DNA of 22,567 bases, taken from the IMG/VR virus record IMGVR_UViG_3300044815_000061, positions 1 through 22,567 of that record; one strand, given 5' to 3'. Positions within the stretch are counted from its first letter, which is position 1; each line of letters starts with the position of its first letter. The notes beneath the pieces were generated by a model, which did not search any database, was not told where the DNA came from, and worked only from the letters and a program-made list of their open reading frames with translations. This DNA is from a virus. Position numbers and translations under genes: made by a program. Below, piece by piece: positions 3,612 to 22,567 of the stretch.

Positions 3612-3790
3612 CGGTCGATCTTTCCAATAATGATCGGTGTCATTCCGCGCGGGACTGCGCGGAGCTTCCCGTCCGGCAGCTCCCATACATCGGCGGTCTC
3701 ACTGTCGAATTCTGGTCGCCGCAGCCAGCCATAGGCGGAGCATGGCAGTCTGGTGTGTTTGACTGGTCCGTCTTCCGGGATCGTGGTCAT
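3608..3790 (-). CDS. 60-residue hypothetical protein downstream of the portal gene
   Basis: The protein begins MTTIPEDGPVKHTRLPCSAY and ends 'GMTPIIIGKIDR'. The frame is open far upstream inside the portal gene, but the real start is the ATG at 3790, which overlaps the portal stop as ATGA. The stop overlaps the next start in the same way. It is compact and soluble with a single Cys. The function is unknown. Confidence 0.65.
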   Translation of the reverse strand: MTTIPEDGPVKHTRLPCSAYGWLRRPEFDSETADVWELPDGKLRAVPRGMTPIIIGKIDR

Positions 3791-6012
3791 TTCTTCTTTG
3801 CCGCCGGCTTCGGTCTGGCCTTCGCCGCGGTCACCGCACTTTCGGCCTGCAGCTTGGCGACATGCCGGGCGGACGCGGCCGATGTCTCCGCCGCATGGTG
3901 GTCGCTCGCCGCCTTCACATCGGCCGTGTAGCGCGTGGTTTGGTGCTCGGCCGATGTGGCACGTTCCTCGCGGCTGTGCTCGGCCGCCAGTCGCAGCTGT
4001 TCGATCTGCAGCCGCGTCGCCTCGATGCCGGTCTGATCCCGCGCGATGTTCTGCCGCGCCTGCATCTCTGCCTGTTTGGAGGCGGTTTCGGCCTGCAGCT
4101 CGGTGGTGCGGTGCTGACTCTCCAGCTCCGCTTCGGCCGCCTTGCGCTGCATGTCGATGCCGTCCTGCTTGACCTTGGCGATCTTCGCCTGCGCCTCGGC
4201 CATGCGCGCCTGTCCGATCAGCGGATCGGGCGGTGCGGCGCCGCCACCAGCCGCCGGCATCGGCGCCGGCTGCGGCAAAACGAAGGCGTCGGCGTCGTTC
4301 ACACCGATGGTCTTCCAGGCTTTCTTGTGAACGGCGATGCGGTCGTACAGATCCGGGTTGGTGCCGGCGACGGTGACCAAAGCCGTAGCAAGCTGGATGC
4401 GGTGAATCTGGCTTGGCACATTCGGGTCGGATGCCGGCACCAGATCCAGATTGGCGAACTCGGCGGCCTTGCTCCAGGTGCGGACCGAACCGGGGATCTT
4501 GTTCAGCGCTTCGGGATTGTCGATGAAACAATCGCGCAACAGTGCCAGCTCGCGCGCCTGGGCACGGTGCAGCCGCTTGTGGACGGCACTCATGGTCTGC
4601 GTGCTGATCTCGATCATCGACATCATCGTGCCCACCGGCGTGTTGGTGCGCCCCTCGCCGACTTCCACCTCGGCCATGCCCGCCATCCGCATCGCGTCCT
4701 GGCCGATCGCCTGGGCCAGCGCCATGAATTGGGGCGAGACATCCTTGTACGGCATCGGCATCAGCGCTTTGCGGATGTCGTCGAATGAACCGATGTCGAT
4801 GTCCGGCCACTCGCCCGGCCCCGGTCGGATATCGTTGGTCGACATCCGCACACCCTTGGCCTTCATGCCGCCGGGCGCGTTGGCATACATCCCCGATGTT
4901 ACCAAAAGTCGCCAAATTCCCCGTAATGCCCGCGTTTGGTTACCCAGCAGGTGCATGAAGCCCAGGCAGAGGAAATTAAACGAGGGGATCATGCCGTAAT
5001 GCACGAAGCGCTGGCGGCGGTTGAATTGCGGGTCGCCGTCTTTCCAGCCACGCCGCAAACTGAGGACTTTAGACGACTGTTTGTCCAATGTGACGATATA
5101 GGACACCGGCAGATCCGGCACCTTGGGCAGCGAGACGCCGTAGTCCCCCAGGTCCAGATCCGCCGTCACCTCATAGATCTCGTGCGGCACGTCCTGCGGG
5201 CGCGCCATGATCCCACTGATGCCGGCGATCCGGCCCTGCGCCAGTTTGGCCGGGTCCATCGTCGGTTGCGCGGTCGGGAGCGGTTCATCCACCCAATCGG
5301 CGAATTTCTGCATCCGCCGCACCATCACATCGGTCATTTCGCTCCGATGGGTGACCCTGAGCGCGGTTTCCAGGTCGGTCGCGTCCTCAGATACGATCAG
5401 ATCCTCAATGCCGACCGTTTCGGACACAGGTCGGCGGCGCAGGGGGTGCTGATAGACCTTTTTGAACATATTTCCGCTGTAAAACAGCGAAAATAGCCCT
5501 CGATCGGTGTCTGGATAGTATTCTGGCGCGCCAGTTGTCAGATATGCGTTCATATCCGCCTGGAAAGCGGCGGCAAGCGCGTCAAGTTCCGCTGTATCCC
5601 CCCCTAAAGTCTGCACTTTGCAGGGTCCGCCGGCCGGCATCAGCTCCGCGCCGGCATTCGACTGGGCGCGCACCACCGCTTCCAGCAGCAGCGGGTGGCC
5701 GACCTTGCTGGTCTTCTCCTTTTTGTCGTCGTCAATCTGCAAACCCAGCAGATCCATGCCGTTGGTGTAGCCCTGGATGAAGGCGGAGCGGCTTTTGATG
5801 TCCATCTCGACGCCTTCAAGCAGCTCATTGGCGATGCCGGCCGTGTCCAGACCGTCCCGCAGCGCCAGATTTTCGTTGAAGCCCTTGCCGGCGTCGCGCT
5901 GCTTGCGCACCGCGGGCGCGGTGATGGTGACACCCCCATCCGGGTCGACGGTGACCACCGTCTCGGTGGTGCCCAGGCCACCGAAGCCCGGCACGCCGGC
6001 CATGTCGTTCAT
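3787..6012 (-). CDS. Phage portal protein with long C-terminal coiled coil
   Basis: This 741-residue protein is the likely portal, the dodecameric ring at one head vertex through which DNA is pumped. The central region 'RRGWKDGDPQFNRRQRFVHY' followed by 'GMIPSFNFLCLGFMHLLGNQ' resembles large portals of podo- and siphoviruses. The last 140 residues, from about 600, form a Gln/Ala/Glu-rich coiled coil ending in a basic 'KARPKPAAKKK' tail, comparable to the barrel or crown helices of P22-type portals. The ATG at 6012 has a GAAGG site. The gene follows a small terminal gene and is translationally coupled to the next. The family call is by pattern; size and place agree. Confidence 0.85.
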   Translation of the reverse strand: MNDMAGVPGFGGLGTTETVVTVDPDGGVTITAPAVRKQRDAGKGFNENLALRDGLDTAGIANELLEGVEMDIKSRSAFIQGYTNGMDLLGLQIDDDKKEKTSKVGHPLLLEAVVRAQSNAGAELMPAGGPCKVQTLGGDTAELDALAAAFQADMNAYLTTGAPEYYPDTDRGLFSLFYSGNMFKKVYQHPLRRRPVSETVGIEDLIVSEDATDLETALRVTHRSEMTDVMVRRMQKFADWVDEPLPTAQPTMDPAKLAQGRIAGISGIMARPQDVPHEIYEVTADLDLGDYGVSLPKVPDLPVSYIVTLDKQSSKVLSLRRGWKDGDPQFNRRQRFVHYGMIPSFNFLCLGFMHLLGNQTRALRGIWRLLVTSGMYANAPGGMKAKGVRMSTNDIRPGPGEWPDIDIGSFDDIRKALMPMPYKDVSPQFMALAQAIGQDAMRMAGMAEVEVGEGRTNTPVGTMMSMIEISTQTMSAVHKRLHRAQARELALLRDCFIDNPEALNKIPGSVRTWSKAAEFANLDLVPASDPNVPSQIHRIQLATALVTVAGTNPDLYDRIAVHKKAWKTIGVNDADAFVLPQPAPMPAAGGGAAPPDPLIGQARMAEAQAKIAKVKQDGIDMQRKAAEAELESQHRTTELQAETASKQAEMQARQNIARDQTGIEATRLQIEQLRLAAEHSREERATSAEHQTTRYTADVKAASDHHAAETSAASARHVAKLQAESAVTAAKARPKPAAKKK

Positions 6013-6087
6013 AGGGAGCCTTCGGTGGCGGATCAGCGCGCAGCCGCGCCGGGATTTCCGCCCACCGGGTCGGTGTCGGCCACTCTA

Positions 6088-6462
6088 TCAGTGAGTTGGC
6101 ACGGCCGGCGCGAATTTATGCGCGGCCGGCGAACGGGACCGCGGCCGGCGGGATGGTTTCTCAGGCGAACGCGGACCGATCGCGCGCTGCCGCTCGAAAC
6201 TGTCGATACATTTCAGCAGCCAGCGAACCGCTTTTTCTTCCGGCCAGCCGAGCCGCAGCCGCTGCTGATAGAGATCGGCCACCTGCTCCGTGTCAGGCTT
6301 GATGGCGCCGGTGTTCAGCCGGTCCCGCAGCGCCTGGGGCAGCACGTCGAAGAATGCCATGCGCGCGCGCGCCTCCCTGGCCTGCAGCGCCAATTCGTTT
6401 TTGGGGGAGGTACGACCCCTGGCAGCCGTACCCCCCTTTGGTCGCGGTTGAGTCGGTGTCAT
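6088..6462 (-). CDS. Small basic phage protein upstream of portal
   Basis: This 124-residue basic protein has a helical middle ('REARARMAFFDVLPQALRDR', 'WPEEKAVRWLLKCIDSFERQ') and a disordered Arg/Pro/Ser-rich tail. The start is the ATG at 6462; a GTG two codons earlier is possible. The gene faces the methyltransferase cassette across a gap of about 30 bases, so a divergent promoter must sit in or near it. The location directly before the portal could suit a packaging or head-completion protein, but the known small-terminase pattern is elsewhere. The function is unknown. Confidence 0.65.
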   Translation of the reverse strand: MTPTQPRPKGGTAARGRTSPKNELALQAREARARMAFFDVLPQALRDRLNTGAIKPDTEQVADLYQQRLRLGWPEEKAVRWLLKCIDSFERQRAIGPRSPEKPSRRPRSRSPAAHKFAPAVPTH

Positions 6463-6493: not shown

Positions 6494-7201
6494 GTGAGCC
6501 TGATCCGCCGACTGACGGACTACGAAAACCCGAATTCCTGGGGATCGCGAATGCGACAACGCCGCAGTGTGGTGCTGAAGCGCCTGATTAGGGAGGCGGC
6601 CGAGCGGAATTGTGGGAATACGGTTCGCATCCTCGATATGGGTGGCGAAATCGGCTACTGGAAAACGTTCGGCGAGACTTTCCTGCGCCAGAATAGTGTG
6701 CATCTCACGCTGATCAACCTCGATTATAGCCGGTTGTCCCCACGCTCTCTGCCCGACCCGACGCTTTACACCGTGGCCGGCGGCGACTGCTGCGATCTGG
6801 CGGACCATATCGACCACTCATTTGAGATCGTGCATTCCAATTCGGTTATAGAACACGTCGGGGACTGGCAACGGGTGTTGGCCTTTGGCCGCAATGTCCG
6901 TCGATTGGCGCCCGCATATTTCGTCCAGACGCCGAATTTCTGGTTTCCAATCGAGCCGCATTTTGGCGCGGTGGGTTTTCAGTGGCTGCCCGAACCGGTG
7001 CGGGTGCGGATGGTCAACCGCCGCGCGATGGGGCAATTTCCCCAGGTCGGCGTCGATCGCGCGCATGAGTTTGTGCAAGAGGTGCGCCTGCTGACCGCGT
7101 GGCAGATGCGGCACGTTTTCCCCGACGCGCAAATCGTCGGCGAGCGGGTGTTCGGCTTCACCAAGTCATTCATGGCCGTCAGGCCGGGAGTGCCCGGATG
7201 A
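6494..7201 (+). CDS. Class I SAM-dependent methyltransferase (cassette B)
   Basis: This 235-residue protein has the Rossmann motif I 'RILDMGGEIGYW' at residues 45-56, an acidic strand end 'LINLDY' at 73-78, and 'SNSVIEHVGDW' at 115-125, the methyltransferase 11-type post-motif. The later 'FVQTPNFWFPIEPHF' followed by 'GFQWLP' resembles methyltransferases of surface-glycan clusters, so it may modify a small molecule or sugar rather than DNA. I chose the GTG at 6494 because GGGGGGA lies nine bases upstream; a TTG at 6473 is alternative. It reads against the head module and heads a three-gene plus-strand cassette, typical of a moron. The substrate is unknown. Confidence 0.8.
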   Translation: MSLIRRLTDYENPNSWGSRMRQRRSVVLKRLIREAAERNCGNTVRILDMGGEIGYWKTFGETFLRQNSVHLTLINLDYSRLSPRSLPDPTLYTVAGGDCCDLADHIDHSFEIVHSNSVIEHVGDWQRVLAFGRNVRRLAPAYFVQTPNFWFPIEPHFGAVGFQWLPEPVRVRMVNRRAMGQFPQVGVDRAHEFVQEVRLLTAWQMRHVFPDAQIVGERVFGFTKSFMAVRPGVPG

Positions 7202-7470
7202 ACGATGCGGATGTCTATCTGGTCTGGTCACACGAACACGGCGGCTGGTGGGGACCGGGCCGCAACGGCTACGTGCAAAAGGTTTCAGACGCCGGGCGAT
7301 ACAGCCGCGCCCAGGCGCTGGAGATCTGTTGCGGATCGGTGCCGGGCACCGCAGCCCAGCTCGGCGCGATGCCAGAATTGCCCGTGCGCTTGGCCGACGT
7401 TGCCGCGATCATCGCCGCCTATTTCGAGACATACCCCATCGAACTGGAGAACAGAGTGCCGTGGCTATAA
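7198..7470 (+). CDS. Small conserved phage protein ('VWSHEHGGWWGPG' type)
   Basis: This 90-residue protein begins MNDADVYLVWSHEHGGWWGP and continues 'GRNGYVQKVSDAGRYSRAQA'. The Trp/His/Gly-rich opening and 'AGRYSRAQAL' helix recall a small protein common in phages and mobile elements, whose role I do not know. The start ATG overlaps the methyltransferase stop as ATGA. It ends in 'ENRVPWL', and its last codons overlap the start of the next gene. Confidence 0.7.
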   Translation: MNDADVYLVWSHEHGGWWGPGRNGYVQKVSDAGRYSRAQALEICCGSVPGTAAQLGAMPELPVRLADVAAIIAAYFETYPIELENRVPWL

Positions 7471-8338: not shown

Positions 8339-9982
8339 TCAGACCCCGTACTCTTCGCGGACGGTCTGCTCGTTACCGTGAAACAACACTGCATCGTCGC
8401 GCTCCGCCTGGACTTCCGCAGTATGCTGCAGCAGCCCCATGTCGCGCAGCTTCTTGACCGCCGCCGACACGGTGTCGGTCAGGTCCTTCCAGCGCGACCG
8501 CGGGAACGTCGCGACTTCATCAATCACCATGTCCGCCCATTTCCGGGTCGGCGCATAAATCAGCCCGGCCGAGAAAGCCGGCGACGCCGCATGCAGCCGG
8601 GCGATCTTGTCGCCCTTCGGCACGTCCGCGAAAATGGTGAATTCCTCGGCGCGCATCAACCGGCGCATCTCCTGCATCACCGACAGACCGGACGCCTTGG
8701 ACTCGATCAGCACCCCGTCGGCCTTCCGCCGCCGCGCGGTGTCCAGCAGCTTCAGCACCAGCGCCCGCATCTCCATGCGCTCACGCCATGCCTCTAAAAG
8801 AATGATCTTGGGGTTCCTGGCCGTGTCCTGGAACACGCCCCAGACCGTGCAGGCCGACCAGTCGTTCTCTTCCTTCTCGGTGTACGCCGTGTCGGCCGCC
8901 ACCAGCACGTAATCCAGCGATGGATAGATCACCCGGCGCACGGTCCGCTGGCCTTCCTGGAAATCCCGCTCCCAGCTGTCTTCCTGCCCGACCGGCGGCC
9001 ACGCCAGCCACCACTCCCGCAGCACGATCCCACCACCGCGCATCGTCGGGATCTGCTGATACTGTCCGGCCCAGGCATGGGGACCGACCAAACGCCGCTG
9101 CTTGGCCGCCCAGCCGCTGTTGAACCGCTCGGGCCATAGCAACTCGCCGTCGACGCGACGCGGGTCGTCAAAGCCCAGGCCGGTGTGACAGTGCCGCCGG
9201 CTGTCGTACTCCAACGGCAACATCAGATGGACGAGGTTCGGGTCGTTCTCTTCCAGCAGGTGGCCGGACAGGTCGCCCTCATTCAGCCGCTGCATCACGA
9301 TCACCTCGGCGCCGAACACCGGATCGTTGCTGCGGGTCCGCCATACCTCGTCGTAGGCGCGGATCACCGCGGATCGCACCAGATCGCTTTCCACCTCGTC
9401 GGTCTTGTGCGGATCATCGATCAGCCGGATGGCGCCGCCTTTGCCCAGGCTTTCGGGGATGCCGGTGGAGATCCGGCTGCCACCGGCCAGGGTGTCGTAC
9501 TGACTTTGGTTGTCGCGGTCCTTGGCGATCACCACCCGCTGGCCCCATCGCTCCTGGAACCATTCGGTGCCGATCAGCCGCCGCGCGGTGACCCCATCGC
9601 CTTCGGCTTTGTTGGCACCGTAGCTGGCGCACAGGAAACGAACGCCCGGCCCGTGCAGCGGGAAATCCGGGTCGGTCGCCAGTATCCAGGTCCACACCGG
9701 CCACGCGATGGCGACCAAGTTGGTCTTGCCGAACCGGGGCGGGATGTTGATCACCAGCCGCTTGATCCGCCCGTCCGTAACTGCCTGCAAATGTTCGGCG
9801 ATGGCGTCCAGGTGCCAGCCAGGGACGAAAGTCGAACTGTCAAAGTAAGGCCACGCCCGGCGGAGGAACGCCGGCAGGCTGCGCTCGCACTCTAATTTGT
9901 ATTCCGACCACGCCAAAGCCTCGCGCACCAGAATCTCGGCGCGGATGGCGCTTGGCGCAGACTGGGACACGAAATCGACCAT
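8339..9982 (-). CDS. terL: Terminase large subunit (packaging ATPase and nuclease)
   Basis: This 547-residue enzyme cuts concatemeric DNA and pumps it through the portal into the prohead. The ATPase domain shows a Walker A-like 'PPRFGKT' at residues 81-87 and a Walker B 'IRLIDDP' at 185-191, with 'LASGGSR'-like coupling residues just before it ('LAGGSRIST', 165-173). The RNase H-like nuclease domain shows D364 in 'VAADTAY', E427 in 'LIESKASG' and D500/D503 in 'WKDLTDT'. Length is normal for the family. I chose the ATG at 9982; a TTG lies one codon earlier. The gene is divergent from cassette D. The small subunit is not adjacent but about 7.5 kb to the right. Confidence 0.93.
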   Translation of the reverse strand: MVDFVSQSAPSAIRAEILVREALAWSEYKLECERSLPAFLRRAWPYFDSSTFVPGWHLDAIAEHLQAVTDGRIKRLVINIPPRFGKTNLVAIAWPVWTWILATDPDFPLHGPGVRFLCASYGANKAEGDGVTARRLIGTEWFQERWGQRVVIAKDRDNQSQYDTLAGGSRISTGIPESLGKGGAIRLIDDPHKTDEVESDLVRSAVIRAYDEVWRTRSNDPVFGAEVIVMQRLNEGDLSGHLLEENDPNLVHLMLPLEYDSRRHCHTGLGFDDPRRVDGELLWPERFNSGWAAKQRRLVGPHAWAGQYQQIPTMRGGGIVLREWWLAWPPVGQEDSWERDFQEGQRTVRRVIYPSLDYVLVAADTAYTEKEENDWSACTVWGVFQDTARNPKIILLEAWRERMEMRALVLKLLDTARRRKADGVLIESKASGLSVMQEMRRLMRAEEFTIFADVPKGDKIARLHAASPAFSAGLIYAPTRKWADMVIDEVATFPRSRWKDLTDTVSAAVKKLRDMGLLQHTAEVQAERDDAVLFHGNEQTVREEYGV

Positions 9983-10044
9983 CAAACATCATTGCACGAA
10001 AGCAAAAACGGGCGCTCAATTTCATGACATTGGGGGCAAGTGCC

Positions 10045-10857: not shown

Positions 10858-11018
10858 GTGATGTCCGTCTCTCGGTAGAAACGCTTTTGGCGGGGTTCAT
10901 GCGACTGGTTCAGAGCGATAACCAATGTGACGTGACCGGCGCAGAATGCCGGGAGAAAGAACGGTGCGGGTGCTACCTGGAAATGCTGAATTGGTGCTCT
11001 GAAGCAGACCCTGCATGA
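10854..11018 (+). CDS. Cys-rich 54-residue protein
   Basis: The protein begins MSDVRLSVETLLAGFMRLVQ and has a Cys cluster 'CDVTGAECREKERCGCYLEM' then 'LNWC', five Cys over about 26 residues, fitting a small zinc-binding domain. The ATG overlaps the DNA methyltransferase stop as ATGA. It is probably translated with it. The function is unknown; nucleic acid or methyltransferase partner binding is a guess. Confidence 0.65.
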   Translation: MSDVRLSVETLLAGFMRLVQSDNQCDVTGAECREKERCGCYLEMLNWCSEADPA

Positions 11019-11305
11019 CCGACAATCCAAAACCCATCCCCATGCCGAGCGACCCGTACGCCGGCATGCCCAAGCTGGCCAAGCTGCTGGAGGCCGGCGA
11101 TGTCGCGCTGGTCGCCTGGACGCTGTGGAGCCGGTCGATCGAAATGCGCGCCACCGCCATCGCGTTCCGCGCCCGTGCGGATGCTATGGAACACATCGGC
11201 GACGATGGGGCAAAGTGGCTGCGGAAAGCGGCGACCCTGGAGCTGGCAGCCGACCGGCTGATGGGCGCGGCACTGGGGGAGCCATGGGAACCAAGCCCGC
11301 TGTGA
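11015..11305 (+). CDS. Small helical hypothetical protein
   Basis: This 96-residue protein has a Pro-rich start (MTDNPKPIPMPSDPYAGMPK), then Ala-rich helices with an Arg/Glu pattern ('RSIEMRATAIAFRARADAME'). It starts with an ATGA overlap and its end overlaps the next gene by 22 bases. The helical, soluble composition suggests a small DNA-modifying cassette partner, but no motif is visible. Confidence 0.7.
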   Translation: MTDNPKPIPMPSDPYAGMPKLAKLLEAGDVALVAWTLWSRSIEMRATAIAFRARADAMEHIGDDGAKWLRKAATLELAADRLMGAALGEPWEPSPL

Positions 11306-11478
11306 TAACCGACGCGATGGTGGAGCTGGCGGCACGGGCCTACGTCCGTGCGGTGCAGGAGACGTTCAAGGATTTTGAGCCGATCGACTACCGATCCGCC
11401 GACTGGCAGCAGTTCGAGGACACCGGCTGGCAGGATCTGCGCAGGCCGATCCGCGCCGCCCTGGAGGCGGTCATGTAA
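11284..11478 (+). CDS. Small hypothetical protein ending cassette D
   Basis: This 64-residue protein begins MGTKPAVITDAMVELAARAY and has acidic-aromatic segments ('ETFKDFEPIDYRSADWQQFE'). A GGGGGAG ribosome site lies just upstream of the ATG at 11284. It overlaps the previous gene by 22 bases and ends 15 bases from the convergent gene on the minus strand. The function is unknown. Confidence 0.65.
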   Translation: MGTKPAVITDAMVELAARAYVRAVQETFKDFEPIDYRSADWQQFEDTGWQDLRRPIRAALEAVM

Positions 11479-11493
11479 ACGGTGGTATCGGAT

Positions 11494-11673
11494 TTAGTGG
11501 ACATCAGTTGCGCCCTCCTTTGTGGCGAGACGGTAGAGCGCCGCGATCACCGCCCGCGACAATTTCTCCGCCTCGGCCGCAGTCCACCCAGATGTCCCGC
11601 CATCGGCGTTTCGCGTAATGATCCTATCGCCGTAGAGCCACGCTGGCGAATGGGTCGGCTGGTCCTTGCTCAT
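11494..11673 (-). CDS. 59-residue hypothetical protein, block E
   Basis: The protein begins MSKDQPTHSPAWLYGDRIIT and continues 'RNADGGTSGWTAAEAEKLSR' with a helical end. A GGGGACC ribosome site lies upstream of the ATG at 11673. It is the last gene of block E and converges on cassette D. The stop region overlaps another ATG followed by an ACC-ACC element (11475-11504), so it may have had a further downstream neighbour that was lost. The function is unknown. Confidence 0.65.
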   Translation of the reverse strand: MSKDQPTHSPAWLYGDRIITRNADGGTSGWTAAEAEKLSRAVIAALYRLATKEGATDVH

Positions 11674-11683
11674 TTGAGGTCCC

Positions 11684-11713
11684 CTAAACGGTGGTTGTGA
11701 TTTGGTCAGACAT
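11684..11713 (-). other. Nine-codon micro-ORF, remnant or leader (MSDQITTTV)
   Basis: This frame opens with ATG at 11713, overlapping the previous stop as ATGTCTGA, and ends with TAG at 11684. Its start resembles the 5' ends of nearby genes (MSD...TT). It could be a leader peptide that couples translation, or a remnant of a gene whose body was deleted. It ends 11 bases before the next ATG. Confidence 0.4.
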
Positions 11714-11903
11714 TTTCTGCATCCTTCGCAGCTTGGTAGGCCAAGTCAGCCAAGACGATCCCACTGTCCGGGTTATTCGCGCGCTTAGCTGCCTCGAACA
11801 ACGCGCGTGCTTCTATGGCTTTGCCACAGTCGTGCGGGCCGGAGAATACCTCTCCGCAGCATGAGCAGCGGCGCTTGGTGGTCTTGGATGCGTGGTCAGA
11901 CAT
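11706..11903 (-). CDS. Small Cys-rich protein, block E
   Basis: This 65-residue protein has 'RRCSCCGEVFSGPHDCGKA' near residues 11-29, a four-Cys arrangement typical of a zinc knuckle, then a helical C-terminus. The start shares the MSDxxSKTTK opening of the micro-ORF at 14212, base for base over most of 36 positions. It overlaps the previous stop by eight bases. It may bind nucleic acid; the function is unknown. Confidence 0.7.
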   Translation of the reverse strand: MSDHASKTTKRRCSCCGEVFSGPHDCGKAIEARALFEAAKRANNPDSGIVLADLAYQAAKDAENV

Positions 11904-12141
11904 TTTTCATACCCTTCAACTGGCCTACGGTGACGCGCAGCCCAGATTGGAACCTCGGCAGTGTGTTGATGGTCATCTTGTCTGGATCAGGCTCTGGCGT
12001 GTTCCAGTGGCCGATCGACAGAACCTCATCATCCGGGGCGCCGCTGTAGAGAAATAGGATCGCCCGCACGAATTCATCCGCCGATAGAATTCCAGTCTCA
12101 AAGCTGGTCAACTTGGTGGTTTCCGCTTCACGCTTTTTCAT
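11896..12141 (-). CDS. Small hypothetical protein, block E
   Basis: This 81-residue protein begins MKKREAETTKLTSFETGILS and has a helical body 'ADEFVRAILFLYSGAPDDEV' and a C-terminal 'LRVTVGQLKGMKNV'. The ETTK near the start carries the block E ACC-ACC signature. It overlaps its neighbours by 14 and 8 bases. The function is unknown. Confidence 0.65.
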   Translation of the reverse strand: MKKREAETTKLTSFETGILSADEFVRAILFLYSGAPDDEVLSIGHWNTPEPDPDKMTINTLPRFQSGLRVTVGQLKGMKNV

Positions 12142-12346
12142 TTACAGCCTCTGTTGCCGCGAGTTCCTTCAGCTTCGCGTCCCGGTCGGCCTCTCGGTCA
12201 AAGAACATCGGCTTGCCGTCCTTGAAAATATGCGCCCAGCCGTTCTTCCCGACCCGTGCCTGGATGGCATAAATCGGCTGCATGGTCTTGGTGTTGATCC
12301 AGTCGCATGGCCGAAAGCGTCGACGCTCTGCGATATGGTCAGGCAT
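12128..12346 (-). CDS. Small hypothetical protein with Trp/Phe-rich core
   Basis: This 72-residue protein begins MPDHIAERRRFRPCDWINTK and contains 'ARVGKNGWAHIFKDGKPMFF', a beta-like pattern, then a charged helix. The start overlaps the previous stop as ATGCCTGA, the eight-base junction seen elsewhere in this block. No motif I can name is present. Confidence 0.65.
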   Translation of the reverse strand: MPDHIAERRRFRPCDWINTKTMQPIYAIQARVGKNGWAHIFKDGKPMFFDREADRDAKLKELAATEAVNEKA

Positions 12347-12506
12347 GGCGGATCACCCTCGCAGCGTCGCGGATCGCAAACGTGACGGCCGCTTTGACGG
12401 CGGCAGGGACGGTCTTGCAGGCGCACTCGGGATAGCTGCACGCGAGATGAACGTTTGCCGCATCGCAGCCTATCCGGATCGCGGCGGTTATTTTGGTGGT
12501 GTTCAT
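12339..12506 (-). CDS. 55-residue Cys-containing hypothetical protein
   Basis: The protein begins MNTTKITAAIRIGCDAANVH, then 'CSYPECACKTVPAAVKAAV' and a basic end. Three Cys within eight residues hint at metal binding. The start overlaps the previous stop as ATGA, and its stop overlaps the next start by eight bases. The MNTTK opening has the block E signature. The function is unknown. Confidence 0.65.
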   Translation of the reverse strand: MNTTKITAAIRIGCDAANVHLACSYPECACKTVPAAVKAAVTFAIRDAARVIRHA

Positions 12507-12712
12507 TCGTCCCTGTCCGAAATATCGTGATCCGGTTCATCGAAGCCCACCACCAAGGTGTACGCCGGCTTGCCTGTGGCGGTGCTTGAGAATGTCACCC
12601 TGGCAACCTGGAACATCCCGTTGTCCAACGAGAATTGCAGCGTCGGCTCAAAGTTATCGACCATCTCGTGCAGGCGCTTGATGATCTCATTGACGTTCGG
12701 TTTTGGAGTCAT
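12503..12712 (-). CDS. Small hypothetical protein, beta-rich
   Basis: This 69-residue protein begins MTPKPNVNEIIKRLHEMVDN, with an N-terminal helix then beta-like 'FQVARVTFSSTATGKPAYTL' and an acidic tail 'DEPDHDISDRDE'. It starts two bases after the upstream stop and its own stop overlaps the next ATG. It is one of the few genes in this block without the ACC-ACC start signature. The function is unknown. Confidence 0.65.
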   Translation of the reverse strand: MTPKPNVNEIIKRLHEMVDNFEPTLQFSLDNGMFQVARVTFSSTATGKPAYTLVVGFDEPDHDISDRDE

Positions 12713-12714
12713 GA

Positions 12715-12873
12715 CTACCCGATCAAGCGCGATAATCGGCCCGCCGCTAGGCCGATGCCGACGAACATCACAAATGAGCCGTTTGATGACCCGGCGCAGC
12801 CGCCGACAATCAGCGCCAACGCAAAGATCACGAGCGGATCGCAGACCGCGTGTAGAATGTCTGCCCTGGTCAT
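12715..12873 (-). CDS. 52-residue membrane protein with two hydrophobic stretches
   Basis: The protein begins MTRADILHAVCDPLVIFALA, then 'LIVGGCAGSSNGSFVMFVGI' and ends with a basic 'GRLSRLIG'. Two hydrophobic stretches (about residues 13-27 and 33-44) could form a hairpin of membrane helices. The start overlaps the previous stop as ATGA. Size and topology fit many small phage membrane proteins, including holins, but no evidence decides this. Confidence 0.6.
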   Translation of the reverse strand: MTRADILHAVCDPLVIFALALIVGGCAGSSNGSFVMFVGIGLAAGRLSRLIG

Positions 12874-13112
12874 GTCGCGAGACACAGCCGGCTAGCCGTC
12901 AGGCACGCCTCCATTGCCGAGCGCTTTTCTGGCTCGCGATCAAGAATGCCTTGTATGGCGTGTGAGTAGGCGGCTGCATAAAAGGAGGCGGCATCACTCG
13001 CCGCTCCGGTCGCTACCTTGCAGGTCTCGCGCCACTTGCGCTCTTTCCGCGCTAGCCATGCGATGATCTGTTCGCGATAGGCGTCGACATCGGTGGTTGG
13101 GATTTCAGCCAT
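12870..13112 (-). CDS. Small helical hypothetical protein
   Basis: This 80-residue protein begins MAEIPTTDVDAYREQIIAWL and continues 'ARKERKWRETCKVATGAASD', a charged then Ala-rich helix. It has the block E Thr-Thr start and an eight-base overlap with the previous stop (ATGGCTGA). The function is unknown. Confidence 0.7.
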   Translation of the reverse strand: MAEIPTTDVDAYREQIIAWLARKERKWRETCKVATGAASDAASFYAAAYSHAIQGILDREPEKRSAMEACLTASRLCLAT

Positions 13113-13446
13113 GAGTTTCTGCGCTCCGCTTGCTCATCTCTGCCGCAAATTCCTTGATACGCGGCATCAGGTATTTGTCCCGCACGCGCTCAACGACACA
13201 CATGGACCCGTGGTGATGTGTCTCCCATCGCCGGCATCGGCGCTTGTGCATTTCCAGCATGTCGCTGAACTGGTAGATATTCCATGCGATGCTTCCGCGT
13301 TCGTCCCATTTGAAATACCACTGTGCGGTAAGGTCAGATTCGGATAGGGCATAAAGCTCGTCATCGAAGCGACCGACGAGGGATGTGATCGTGTCGCCGA
13401 TCGCTTTGTCCAGGTCGCCACTGGTCGTCTTGATCGGGTCAGACAT
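13105..13446 (-). CDS. Hypothetical protein, block E (113 aa)
   Basis: This protein begins MSDPIKTTSGDLDKAIGDTI and contains 'LTAQWYFKWDERGSIAWNIY', then a His/Arg-rich 'KRRCRRWETHHHGSMC'. The His/Cys-rich region may bind metal. Start overlap with an upstream micro-ORF is TAATG. Its ACC-ACC core is present with one base change (ACGACC). The function is unknown. Confidence 0.7.
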   Translation of the reverse strand: MSDPIKTTSGDLDKAIGDTITSLVGRFDDELYALSESDLTAQWYFKWDERGSIAWNIYQFSDMLEMHKRRCRRWETHHHGSMCVVERVRDKYLMPRIKEFAAEMSKRSAETHG

Positions 13447-13499
13447 TATCTGCGCCTTCCTTCAGCGCGGCGTTGATCGGCGTCCGATTTAGCGGCCAT
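13446..13499 (-). other. 17-residue micro-ORF between two block E genes
   Basis: The frame ATG at 13499 to TAA at 13446 encodes MAAKSDADQRRAEGRRR, strongly basic at its end. The TAA overlaps the next ATG (TAATG), and its start lies within the last codons of the upstream gene. It bridges a 42-base gap and could carry ribosomes onto the next gene, or be fortuitous. Confidence 0.35.
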
Positions 13500-13761
13500 T
13501 AGATGAAGCCTCCTGACGGACGACGGCAAAGCCTTCGTGAGCTAACCGCTTCAGCACGGCGTCGGCCCAATCCTCCGGTGACGAGTACATGCCTCGCCCC
13601 ATCAGTAGGCAGTACGCGATAGCATCGCGGGCGGCTAAGCTAGTAGCTTGCAATTTACCATCGATCCAATCGCAGCCGGTTCGGTGCCCTTCAGAGCGTC
13701 CACAGCGCGGGCATGCCGGGTTGGTCGTCGAAGGGATGTCGGTGGTGGTTCGCTCGATCAT
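13489..13761 (-). CDS. Zinc-finger-like small protein
   Basis: This 90-residue protein has 'CPRCGRSEGHRTGCDW' near residues 17-32, a CxxC plus spaced Cys/His set that can bind Zn. A helical part follows ('SLAARDAIAYCLLMGRGMYS'). The ATG at 13761 is chosen because it overlaps the previous stop as ATGA; a GTG at 13770 is in frame but has no ribosome site at a usable distance. The start has the Thr-Thr signature (ERTTTD). A nucleic-acid role is possible. Confidence 0.7.
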   Translation of the reverse strand: MIERTTTDIPSTTNPACPRCGRSEGHRTGCDWIDGKLQATSLAARDAIAYCLLMGRGMYSSPEDWADAVLKRLAHEGFAVVRQEASSNGR

Positions 13762-13970
13762 CTCTTGCACGCCTCAACCATGTCGGGTGCCATGGCTGCG
13801 CCACGGATCTGTCTGGCCACGCCAGAGACGATGGCCCGAGCACGCGGAGCACCCTTGCCTGTCACATGATCGGCCGCCGCCTCTACTTCGTGAGCCATCC
13901 GGACCATGACGGCCCTGAGATGTAGTAGACGTTGGACAGGATCGGGCTTGCTGCTGGTGGTTTCAGACAT
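13758..13970 (-). CDS. Small helical basic protein
   Basis: This 70-residue protein begins MSETTSSKPDPVQRLLHLRA, with an amphipathic helix 'VMVRMAHEVEAAADHVTGKG' and a basic end. The start overlaps the previous stop as ATGTCTGA and carries the TT signature. The reading frame is open upstream, but the overlap selects 13970. The function is unknown. Confidence 0.7.
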   Translation of the reverse strand: MSETTSSKPDPVQRLLHLRAVMVRMAHEVEAAADHVTGKGAPRARAIVSGVARQIRGAAMAPDMVEACKR

Positions 13971-14172
13971 CGCCGACATCCCCCTCATACCGGCGCGGGG
14001 GCGGGTAGAACTCGCGGAACATTGCCATGTCCGCGAGCGTGGGATTGTGATTTGCGAGCAGGTCGTCAAGCCGCTGAACGATCGCGTCTTTCAGTTCTGG
14101 CTTTACGCCAAGCTCGATGTGGTTCCTGGCCCATAGTAGAGCTGCTTTCAACACGCCGGGCTCAAGAGCCAT
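13963..14172 (-). CDS. Small hypothetical protein, block E
   Basis: This 69-residue protein begins MALEPGVLKAALLWARNHIE and continues 'LGVKPELKDAIVQRLDDLLA', largely helical, ending in a Pro/Arg-rich segment. The ATG at 14172 lies inside a 16-residue micro-ORF that starts at 14212. Upstream reading frame is open to 14295 but lacks support. The function is unknown. Confidence 0.65.
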   Translation of the reverse strand: MALEPGVLKAALLWARNHIELGVKPELKDAIVQRLDDLLANHNPTLADMAMFREFYPPPRRYEGDVGDV

Positions 14173-14212
14173 TGCAGTTCTTCTTGGTGGTCTTGGATAC
14201 GGGGTCAGACAT
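14162..14212 (-). other. 16-residue micro-ORF overlapping the next gene's start
   Basis: The frame ATG at 14212 to TGA at 14162 encodes MSDPVSKTTKKNCNGS. Its first 30 bases match the 5' end of the gene at 11903 with few changes. It overlaps the previous stop by eight bases and spans the next start at 14172. It may be a translational coupling leader or the remnant of a duplicated start module. Confidence 0.4.
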
Positions 14213-14504
14213 TCTGCATTCTCCCAAGTAGCCATTTCACCCAAGTCGCCGGGATGTCCCATCGTTGTTCGACGCGGAAATTGAGCTTCGCCCATTTTCC
14301 ATCGTCATCGAGTTTGTTCCACGGAACATCCACGCGCGGGTCACGGCTCGCCTCATGCCGGCGCAAATCCGCCATCGGGTTTTTGATCCATCGCCGGATC
14401 GACAGTTCACACCCAGATGTCAGACAGATGCCGTTCGCCATACCCCGATGAGATGCACTTCGGTCACAACCACAATGACATTTGGGTCGGCCGCGCCCGG
14501 TCAT
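14205..14504 (-). CDS. Phage protein with CHCGC and conserved helix
   Basis: This 99-residue protein contains 'GRGRPKCHCGCDRSASHRGM' near residues 3-22, followed by 'ANGICLTSGCELSIRRWIKN', a Cys-rich pattern that could bind Zn, then an acidic/basic helix. The ATG at 14504 is the working start; ATG at 14573 or 14441 are alternatives because no ribosome site is strong. Two other open frames overlap this start. The C-terminal 'WLLGRMQNV' overlaps the next start. The function is unknown. Confidence 0.6.
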   Translation of the reverse strand: MTGRGRPKCHCGCDRSASHRGMANGICLTSGCELSIRRWIKNPMADLRRHEASRDPRVDVPWNKLDDDGKWAKLNFRVEQRWDIPATWVKWLLGRMQNV

Positions 14505-14622
14505 TGGTTCTGCGTAGCGGACGTGCTCTATGGACGACGCAGCTTCGCCCCATCCACTGGTTCCGCCACGCATGGCTGCTTGCTTTCGGAGGCGACTTGC
14601 GCCCCAGTTTTTGTCGTTTCAT
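14464..14622 (-). CDS. Possible 52-residue basic protein overlapping its neighbour
   Basis: The frame begins MKRQKLGRKSPPKASSHAWR after an AAGGGGG ribosome site eight bases upstream. It continues with Arg-rich 'HRARPLRRTNDRARPTQMSL'. It overlaps the following gene by 41 bases in another frame. Basic composition of this kind arises readily in GC-rich shadows, but the ribosome site favours translation. Whether the product matters is unclear. Confidence 0.4.
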   Translation of the reverse strand: MKRQKLGRKSPPKASSHAWRNQWMGRSCVVHRARPLRRTNDRARPTQMSLWL

Positions 14623-14651
14623 AAATGTGGCCCCCTTGGAAAGCCGTCTTC

Positions 14652-15251
14652 TCAGACGGTCATGCGGTCTCCAGGCGCGTATACTGCCGCACCCCAACGC
14701 TGGAAACACTGCTCAAGCCGTTTCCTGTCCGGGTTATCCCCGTTATCCACAGGGCGAGCCGCGACCGGCGGCTGCATAAGAGTACTTGAATCTTTGTTGT
14801 ACTGGATTCCTCGCCGACTTTCGGTGAGCGGCACCATCGGACGAAAAGTGTAGGCATTCGAGGTGGTTAGGTTTTTGCCCCGGTCGACGCGGGTCCGGTT
14901 GATGACCTTGATCACCCCCAATTCCTCCAGGACGATGATCGCCAGCCCAACCGTCGAGGCGGCACATCTGGCCTCCTTGGCGATGGCGGCGTAGCTGGGG
15001 AAGCAGTTGCCGGTCGTCTTGCTGGCAAATTTGATCAGCGCCCGAAGCACGTTGACCCCGGTGCGCGTCAGAGGGCCGGGCGGGTGCTGCCCAGGCTCAC
15101 GCAGCTTGGCGCTGAGTTCGATCGCATAGACGATCAGCGCGTGGGCGATCCCCTTGGTCATCGGCAGCGAGTCGGGCAGGCCGTGTATCCGGTTGGCAAT
15201 CCGGCGGGCTTTGACCTGGGCATTGGTGCGCTTACGGCGGGTCGTCTTCAC
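14652..15251 (-). CDS. Winged helix-turn-helix protein, possible replication initiator or regulator
   Basis: This 199-residue protein has an N-terminal basic segment (MKTTRRKRTNAQVKARRIAN) and a winged helix over about residues 62-120: 'TRTGVNVLRALIKFASKTTG', then 'CFPSYAAIAKEARCAASTVG' with a turn and recognition helix, as in HTH_36 domains of plasmid/phage replication initiators and regulators. The C-terminus is Pro/Arg-rich and likely flexible. The start is GTG at 15251, with GGAG about nine bases upstream. It heads block E, so it may control the small-gene array or bind the right-end repeats. Confidence 0.7.
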   Translation of the reverse strand: MKTTRRKRTNAQVKARRIANRIHGLPDSLPMTKGIAHALIVYAIELSAKLREPGQHPPGPLTRTGVNVLRALIKFASKTTGNCFPSYAAIAKEARCAASTVGLAIIVLEELGVIKVINRTRVDRGKNLTTSNAYTFRPMVPLTESRRGIQYNKDSSTLMQPPVAARPVDNGDNPDRKRLEQCFQRWGAAVYAPGDRMTV

Positions 15252-15336
15252 GGCTTTTCTCCACCATGAAGTCGATCACCCTCACAAGGCCGTGAGCACA
15301 CCCCTCCAGCACCCCCAAGGGGGCTTGCGAAACCAC
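15232..15336 (-). CDS. Possible 34-residue protein overlapping the HTH gene start
   Basis: The frame runs from GTG at 15336 to TAA at 15232. It encodes MVSQAPLGVLEGCAHGLVRV then 'IDFMVEKSREDDPP', a plausible short amphipathic helix and acidic tail. It overlaps the HTH gene by 20 bases in another frame, a style seen across this phage. There is no strong ribosome site. Treat as tentative. Confidence 0.35.
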   Translation of the reverse strand: MVSQAPLGVLEGCAHGLVRVIDFMVEKSREDDPP

Positions 15337-22081: not shown

Positions 22082-22281
22082 CCGTCCCACCGCCCCGCTG
22101 GCGGTGCCTCCCCCCCACCCCCCGCCAAAGAGGGGCGCGGAAGCGCTGGCGGGGGCGGGATCAGCGGGCACAGGGTCGAATCCAGGTCGCACAGCACCCG
22201 ATGCAGCAACGCCAGTGCCGGCTCATCGCCCTCCAGGTAGCGCACCAACTCACGCACCACCGCTGCGGTCCGGTCAGACAT
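22078..22281 (-). CDS. Small hypothetical protein, right end
   Basis: This 67-residue protein begins MSDRTAAVVRELVRYLEGDE and has 'ALALLHRVLCDLDSTLCPLI', helical, then a Pro/Gly-rich tail. It converges on the XRE gene with four overlapping bases. The start sits just after one TTACCACCT repeat (reverse strand AAGGTGGTAA), so that element may control it or serve as its ribosome site. The function is unknown. Confidence 0.6.
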   Translation of the reverse strand: MSDRTAAVVRELVRYLEGDEPALALLHRVLCDLDSTLCPLIPPPPALPRPSLAGGGGEAPPAGRWDG

Positions 22282-22567
22282 GGGGTCTTACCACCTTTTG
22301 GGGTATTACCACCTCAAGCCTGAAAAAAACACAGCAATATCAATAAGATTACCACCTCGTACCACCTCCACCCCCCCCACCCACATCCTATAGAAAACCA
22401 CCACAAGCAAATACGACGTTGCGTATGTGTGTACTCGGGTATGTTACCTACTACCTCTCTATTCCCTCATTCTCTATAGAATCTCACTTTAGGTGGTAAG
22501 GTAGTAAGAGGTGGTAATATCCCAGTGGAATCATGGCATTACCACCTCTTACCACCTCACCCAAAAC
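22282..22567. repeat. TTACCACCTC repeat cluster in both orientations
   Basis: No gene is visible in these 286 bases. TTACCACCT or its close variant occurs at 22288-22296, 22305-22315, 22348-22358, 22360-22368, 22538-22548 and 22549-22558, and reversed at 22491-22499 and 22508-22518; degenerate copies lie at 22444-22457 and 22499-22507. Copies at 22508 and 22538 face each other across 19 bases. A/T-rich stretches and a C-run lie between. This layout fits iterons of a replication origin or a multi-site operator; it continues to the window edge. Confidence 0.75.

Follow-up and report, generated by a model that had tools for sequence, protein, structure and literature searches.

Start-associated sequences (SAS) have been described in Cluster K mycobacteriophages (PMC3203893) and in Cluster EF Microbacterium phages (PMC7302621), and they are also covered in PMC12699233. 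The known SAS is an asymmetric sequence of 13 bp that includes an SD-like part. It lies 3–7 bp ahead of the ATG, and most of its sites follow intergenic gaps that exceed 50 bp; it occurs in one orientation at small non-structural genes of different families, and a role in translation initiation has been proposed (PMC3203893, PMC7302621). At about half of the SAS sites, 17-bp inverted repeats, termed ESAS, are found upstream (PMC3203893, PMC7302621). On the recombination side, the nearest idea is that of conserved boundary sequences, which are cited in PMC3029335 as a proposed driver of phage mosaicism.

The repeat described here was found in a 22,567-base virus record, whose entire length is referred to as the window. 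The minus strand of the window encodes TerL (8339–9985) and a portal protein (3787–6012), and the repeat belongs to a block of small genes, block E, that lies on the same strand upstream of terL. Like SAS, the block-E repeat occurs in one orientation at the starts of unrelated small non-structural genes, includes an SD-like part, and recurs in a related phage on genes of different families. However, SAS are positioned upstream of the ATG and mostly follow gaps of >50 bp, whereas the block-E repeat reaches across the ATG to about 27–30 nt within the gene, and upstream ORFs overlap the block-E starts. With up to 3 mismatches, the SAS consensus sequences GGGATAGGAGCCC (Cluster K) and GGGAAAGGACCCC (Cluster EF) gave 5 and 4 matches versus 7.2 and 8.4 expected by chance, none of them at block-E starts, and no ESAS-type inverted repeat pair was found at these starts within 10900–15300. 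Because the sequence, the position across the ATG, and the gene overlap differ, block E is not classed as a SAS member, and by analogy it would work like SAS, as a variant extending across the ATG. The sequence-only reading from which this analysis started had already drawn the comparison with SAS, and it was right in kind with respect to the gene starts, the single orientation, the small-gene block, the unrelated proteins, and the recurrence in a relative. With conserved boundary sequences, as cited in PMC3029335, block E has in common a short sequence at junctions of unrelated genes, but all block-E copies are start regions, and no recombination product was identified. A limited search of open-licence papers turned up no account of start repeats that extend so deep into coding sequence, although such accounts may exist.

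The ten block-E sites at which the initial reading had placed ACCACC or ACGACC in frame and within 11 codons of an ATG were all confirmed in their coordinates, and the GTG gene at 15251 is an eleventh Thr-Thr case that it had not listed. Its assignment of these sites to ten small genes and leaders stands as far as the sites are concerned, but the ORFs at 14212, 11713, and 11504 comprise 16, 9, and 38 aa and are not ordinary genes. ACC/ACG-ACC is present in codons 2–12 of 7 of the 12 block-E ORFs of at least 55 aa, compared with 0.18 expected from within-gene codon shuffling, and seven such genes were reached in 0 of 20,000 shuffles; when all ORFs of at least 55 aa from 15251 to 11673 are considered, the motif is present in 8 of 14 versus 0.21. 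Codon-preserving shuffles, which had been named as a possible way to obtain as many sites by chance, thus fail to reproduce the motif. Shuffling of codons 2–12 among themselves resulted in 2.3 of 13 expected versus 7 observed, and N-terminal Thr richness is therefore no explanation of the motif; composition alone as the source of ACC-ACC was rejected on the same result. In GC-matched phage loci, early ACC/ACG-ACC was found at a rate of 1.5% (n = 1,628 ORFs, which are mechanical calls and not curated genes), and none of the 32 other ORFs of the window has an early ACS-ACC, which limits the motif to block E. From 11494 to 14504, the minus strand has nine exact ACCACC sequences, each no more than 33 nt downstream of an ATG, and the frame is always kept at ATG-to-core distances that range from 6 to 21 nt. 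In a hexamer ranking, ACCACC came first, a result that was not significant after correction and for which the background included the starts themselves.

The core had also been said to occur in the repeats at the right end of the window, but this link is unsupported. The right end contains seven exact copies of TTACCACCT in 22288–22557 versus 0.05 expected, five on the plus and two on the minus strand, which form direct and inverted repeats (22281–22567). As no block-E site shows the TTACCACCT context, the six bases common to both motifs are a coincidence, and the right-end repeats were rejected as a further instance of the block-E motif. In themselves, they are iteron- or operator-like. Also outside block E, a 67-aa ORF at 22281 (minus strand) starts with ATGTCTGACC (MSDRTAAV) and has no Thr-Thr.

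The Thr-Thr codons are the tail of a longer repeat, which begins upstream of the ATG and comprises up to about 45 nt in most copies (Table 1). The motif had been described as lying inside the coding region, and it does extend to +24 to +30 in the genes, but the DNA similarity already begins upstream of the ATG, and start windows are alike from about −14 to +30. The common order is an SD-like purine stretch, GCAGAAA, ATGTCTGACC, which often overlaps the upstream stop, and then (TCC)AAG-ACC-ACC; the 3′ part of the common sequence is AAGACCACC with three-base gaps. A repeat search detected 11874–11910 with 14183–14219 (37 nt, 89% identity) and, as a second set, 11690–11720 with 13423–13453 (81%) and with 13092–13122 (71%). 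Local alignment of the windows from −20 to +36 around each start gave the high-scoring pairs 14212/11903 (−7 to +30), 13446/11713 (about −13 to +24), 14212/13446, 13446/11903, 13112/11713, 11903/11713, 14212/11713, and 11713/11504, all nearly in register with the ATG. Ten start pairs, or eight without two self-overlaps, score at least 26, versus at most three in 300 random-window sets. For the start at 13970, no high-scoring alignment with other block-E start windows was found, and the starts at 12141, 12506, 13761, and 15251 have only the Thr-Thr core in common with the cassette. The ten genes that do not belong to the repeat family are still enriched in the core (4 versus 0.17 expected), and a copying model alone is therefore insufficient there. 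A second similar start pair on the minus strand, 13499/11504, is related by GGAGG..ATG(G/T)CC(G/A)CTAAATC from −15 to +17 (MAAKSDA / MSTKSDT).

Table 1. Copies of the block-E start repeat and occurrences of its core in the window.
Feature	Position	Strand	Details
Cassette copy	14183–14219	−	−7 to +30 of ATG 14212; alignment score 54; 89% to 11874–11910
ORF headed by the 14212 copy	14162–14212	−	16 aa, MSDPVSKTTKKNCNGS; 3′ end overlaps next gene start (14172)
Cassette copy	11874–11910	−	ATG 11903; gene 11706–11903, MSDHASKTTKRRC; copy matched by related contig G001
Cassette copy	13423–13459	−	ATG 13446; gene 13105–13446, MSDPIKTTSG; aligns −13 to +24 with 11713
Cassette copy	11690–11727	−	ATG 11713; 9-aa ORF 11684–11713, MSDQITTTV; precedes gene 11673
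Diverged cassette copy	13091–13122	−	ATG 13112; gene 12870–13112, MAEIPTTD; 71% to 11690–11720; aligns with 11713
Diverged cassette copy	11476–11504	−	ATG 11504; MSTKSDTTV; 0 to +29 aligns with 11713, common ACCACCGTTTA
Shortened copy, ATGTCTGAAACCACC	13956–13970	−	ATG 13970; gene 13758–13970; ATGTCTGA overlap and AACCACC common
Core only, ACCACCACC	13741–13749	−	Codons 5–7, gene 13489–13761 (MIERTTTD)
Core only, ACCACC	12495–12500	−	Codons 3–4, gene 12339–12506 (MNTTKIT)
Core only, ACCACC	12115–12120	−	Codons 8–9, gene 11896–12141 (MKKREAETTKLT)
Core, ACGACC	15240–15245	−	Codons 3–4, replication-initiation-like gene 14652–15251 (VKTTRRK)

On either side of the repeat, the flanking sequences are unrelated, in agreement with copies made by duplication or recombination. 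It is improbable, in our view, that Thr-Thr(-Lys) has been selected as an N-terminal peptide tag, for example for the targeting or modification of small phage proteins. In favour of a tag, the frame is kept despite the variable distance to the ATG, and genes that show no other DNA similarity still have the core, but the residues around Thr-Thr vary, copies of the repeat head ORFs of only 9–20 codons, and the best two copies are separated in their coding part by two substitutions that change the amino acid and by no silent one. These non-silent changes, together with a similarity that sets in ahead of the ATG, make a peptide tag less likely, and this suggestion of the initial reading is weakened, also by the ORFs of 9, 16, and 20 codons. 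The stub ORFs at 14212, 11713, and 11504, the last of which runs antisense into a plus-strand ORF, look like starts whose gene has been lost, or like leaders of the one that follows. That such short Thr-containing ORFs are leader peptides that sense threonyl-tRNA, stalling ribosomes and thereby controlling the next gene, is very improbable: the 9-aa and the 16-aa ORF directly precede genes, but they have no more than two or three Thr codons, full-length genes also begin with the same motif, and Rfam detected no leader or attenuator, nor any other known RNA family, in the window.

At five starts (14212, 13970, 13112, 11903, and 11713), the TGA of the called upstream ORF is located at +5 to +7 of the next start, and ATGTCTGA or ATGGCTGA serves as start and stop together. 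The predicted folding is weaker at motif starts (−11.1 kcal/mol) than at other starts (−14.4 kcal/mol) or in the region (−15.8 kcal/mol, sd 4.6), and this weaker folding fits, in combination with the stop/start overlap, a mode of initiation in which ribosomes are coupled. It may, however, simply follow from codons that are poor in G. A model in which early codons were selected solely for low G content and little structure, ACC being favoured in a GC-rich genome and the starts having no common origin, would agree with motif starts that are G-poor and weakly folding, but adjacent ACC-ACC is mostly lost when codons 2–12 are shuffled, is rare in the GC-matched phages, and the starts are alike over an extended sequence. 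We consider this explanation unlikely, as it is largely refuted by the start alignments and the shuffling of codons 2–12. The explanation that we favour, at about an even chance, is that block E contains several copies of one translation-start cassette, which duplication or recombination distributed over junctions of coupled genes. The cassette would consist of an SD-like stretch, a GCAGAAA-like spacer, ATGTCTGACC, and (TCC)AAG-ACC-ACC, and its copies would occupy gene junctions, many of which have the stop of one ORF overlapping the start of the following one (ATGTCTGA). Duplication or recombination would have spread them while small genes were gained, swapped, and lost, with the outcome that one start came to precede unrelated gene bodies, and sometimes a stub ORF alone. 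The cassette would then probably function as a ready-made, weakly structured initiation region for coupled translation. Against this explanation stand the four genes that have the core alone, and the finding that in no pair of genomes has a gene been swapped exactly at the repeat. A translation signal and a recombination site, the other two suggestions of the initial reading, both stay candidates.

For comparison, TerL relatives were taken from viral contigs and bacterial genomes, the bacterial ones being at most distant. The closest long relative, contig IMGVR_UViG_3300047170_000057 (G001; TerL 72%), matches the 11903 start at its positions 493–532 (83% over 40 nt, E 2.9e-5), and absence of the motif from related genomes, which would have spoken against it, is thus not what was observed. 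At this junction in G001, a frame ending in KNV-stop overlaps ATGTCTAA, and the copy heads a 20-codon ORF with the sequence MSNDASKTTDLSDLRAHVIA. Position 739 has another start, MAEQTTKAPDLG, some 600 bases ahead of terL. The repeat lies just upstream of terL, in the same place as in the window, and the gene bodies are unrelated to block E. This is the one relative with which the repeat is shared. Contig L002 (TerL 79%) lacks the motif and has at the adjacent minus-strand starts 480 and 730 a perfect 20-nt repeat of a different sequence, CATGACCCGCGTCTATCTCT (MTRVYL), with proteins that are otherwise different; therefore, the sequence varies between phages, and the habit recurs. A scan of 2.9 million viral contigs (IMG/VR) gave zero matches to the strict repeat pattern, and the looser form AATGTCT(2–14)TCCAAGACCACC matched G001 and eight low-GC contigs of one unrelated family, which were rejected, as the pattern is read there in another frame. 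Block-E proteins have no relatives in G001 or any other fetched locus; no homologues were found in IMG/VR (three queries), no convincing homologue in annotated phages (five queries), no match in PHROGs (seven proteins), and none above the cut-off in Pfam (ten proteins), and block E as DNA had no match in annotated phages.

These data bear on the possibility that the repeat is kept as a boundary sequence for exchange, with short homology at gene starts letting phages recombine whole small genes between genomes, which we regard as conceivable but rather unlikely. The similarity forms islands between flanks that are unrelated on both sides, the gene bodies differ between the window and G001, and the stubs of 9, 16, and 20 codons resemble footprints of lost genes. 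However, no exchange event was observed; G001 alone has the repeat, and none of the block-E genes has a relative there. Moreover, with repeats that are short and have diverged, most copies would recombine by homology only inefficiently, and a translation signal would equally be expected to keep this position and frame with respect to the ATG.

In a survey of 122 loci, gene starts that lie on the same strand and no more than 8 kb apart were compared, with windows shifted by 75 nt as control. Start-anchored similarity in register was found for 51 pairs in 17 loci, versus 1 pair in the shifted windows. Since similarity of TerL was the main criterion by which loci entered the survey, the fraction is not representative of phages at large. 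This alignment survey replaced an earlier exact-repeat survey, because the first-ATG rule misplaces the start by 12 nt in the ATGGAGATYGAYATG element, to which many of the 51 pairs belong. The element comprises a ribosome site and the ATG and is found in the freshwater viral contigs L109, L110, L123, L139, and L107, the first four of which have a TerL of about 38–40% identity; a single contig has it before as many as eight small genes. Like the block-E repeat, it recurs at small-gene starts, and codon 2 is often ACC; unlike the block-E repeat, it rarely extends more than slightly beyond the start codon, and an inverted repeat ACGGTC..GACCG often precedes it. This combination is reminiscent of SAS and ESAS. 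Most surveyed start repeats end near the ATG, like the known SAS, and a few reach at least 18 nt into the gene (the window, L002, L173, and L064). As a separate observation, L003 has upstream of terL a degenerate array with a 5-base period (4450–5350, about 6000–6450, and 7000–7420), made of roughly ACC-rich pentamers with C at position 3 in 88% and without a clean tandem repeat, and such an array was seen in no other fetched locus.

Phages carry fast-changing blocks of small orphan genes. A tentative and on balance rather unlikely extension of the cassette explanation is that a nucleic-acid element, which covers the start codon together with nine or ten codons at the head of the gene, passes as copies from one unrelated gene to another and acts both as a translation-coupling module and as an exchange seam, in which case the stub ORFs would be its footprints, and phages would differ in its sequence and agree in its purpose. 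If a start cassette is kept and only the gene that it precedes is replaced, this would show how genes can be expressed as soon as they are acquired. Start-associated sequences were reportedly named in 2011, and their role is said to have been left open then; with 51 start-anchored pairs versus 1 in 122 loci, such repeats can be found mechanically, and the role of start-associated sequences could thus be tested in many phages.
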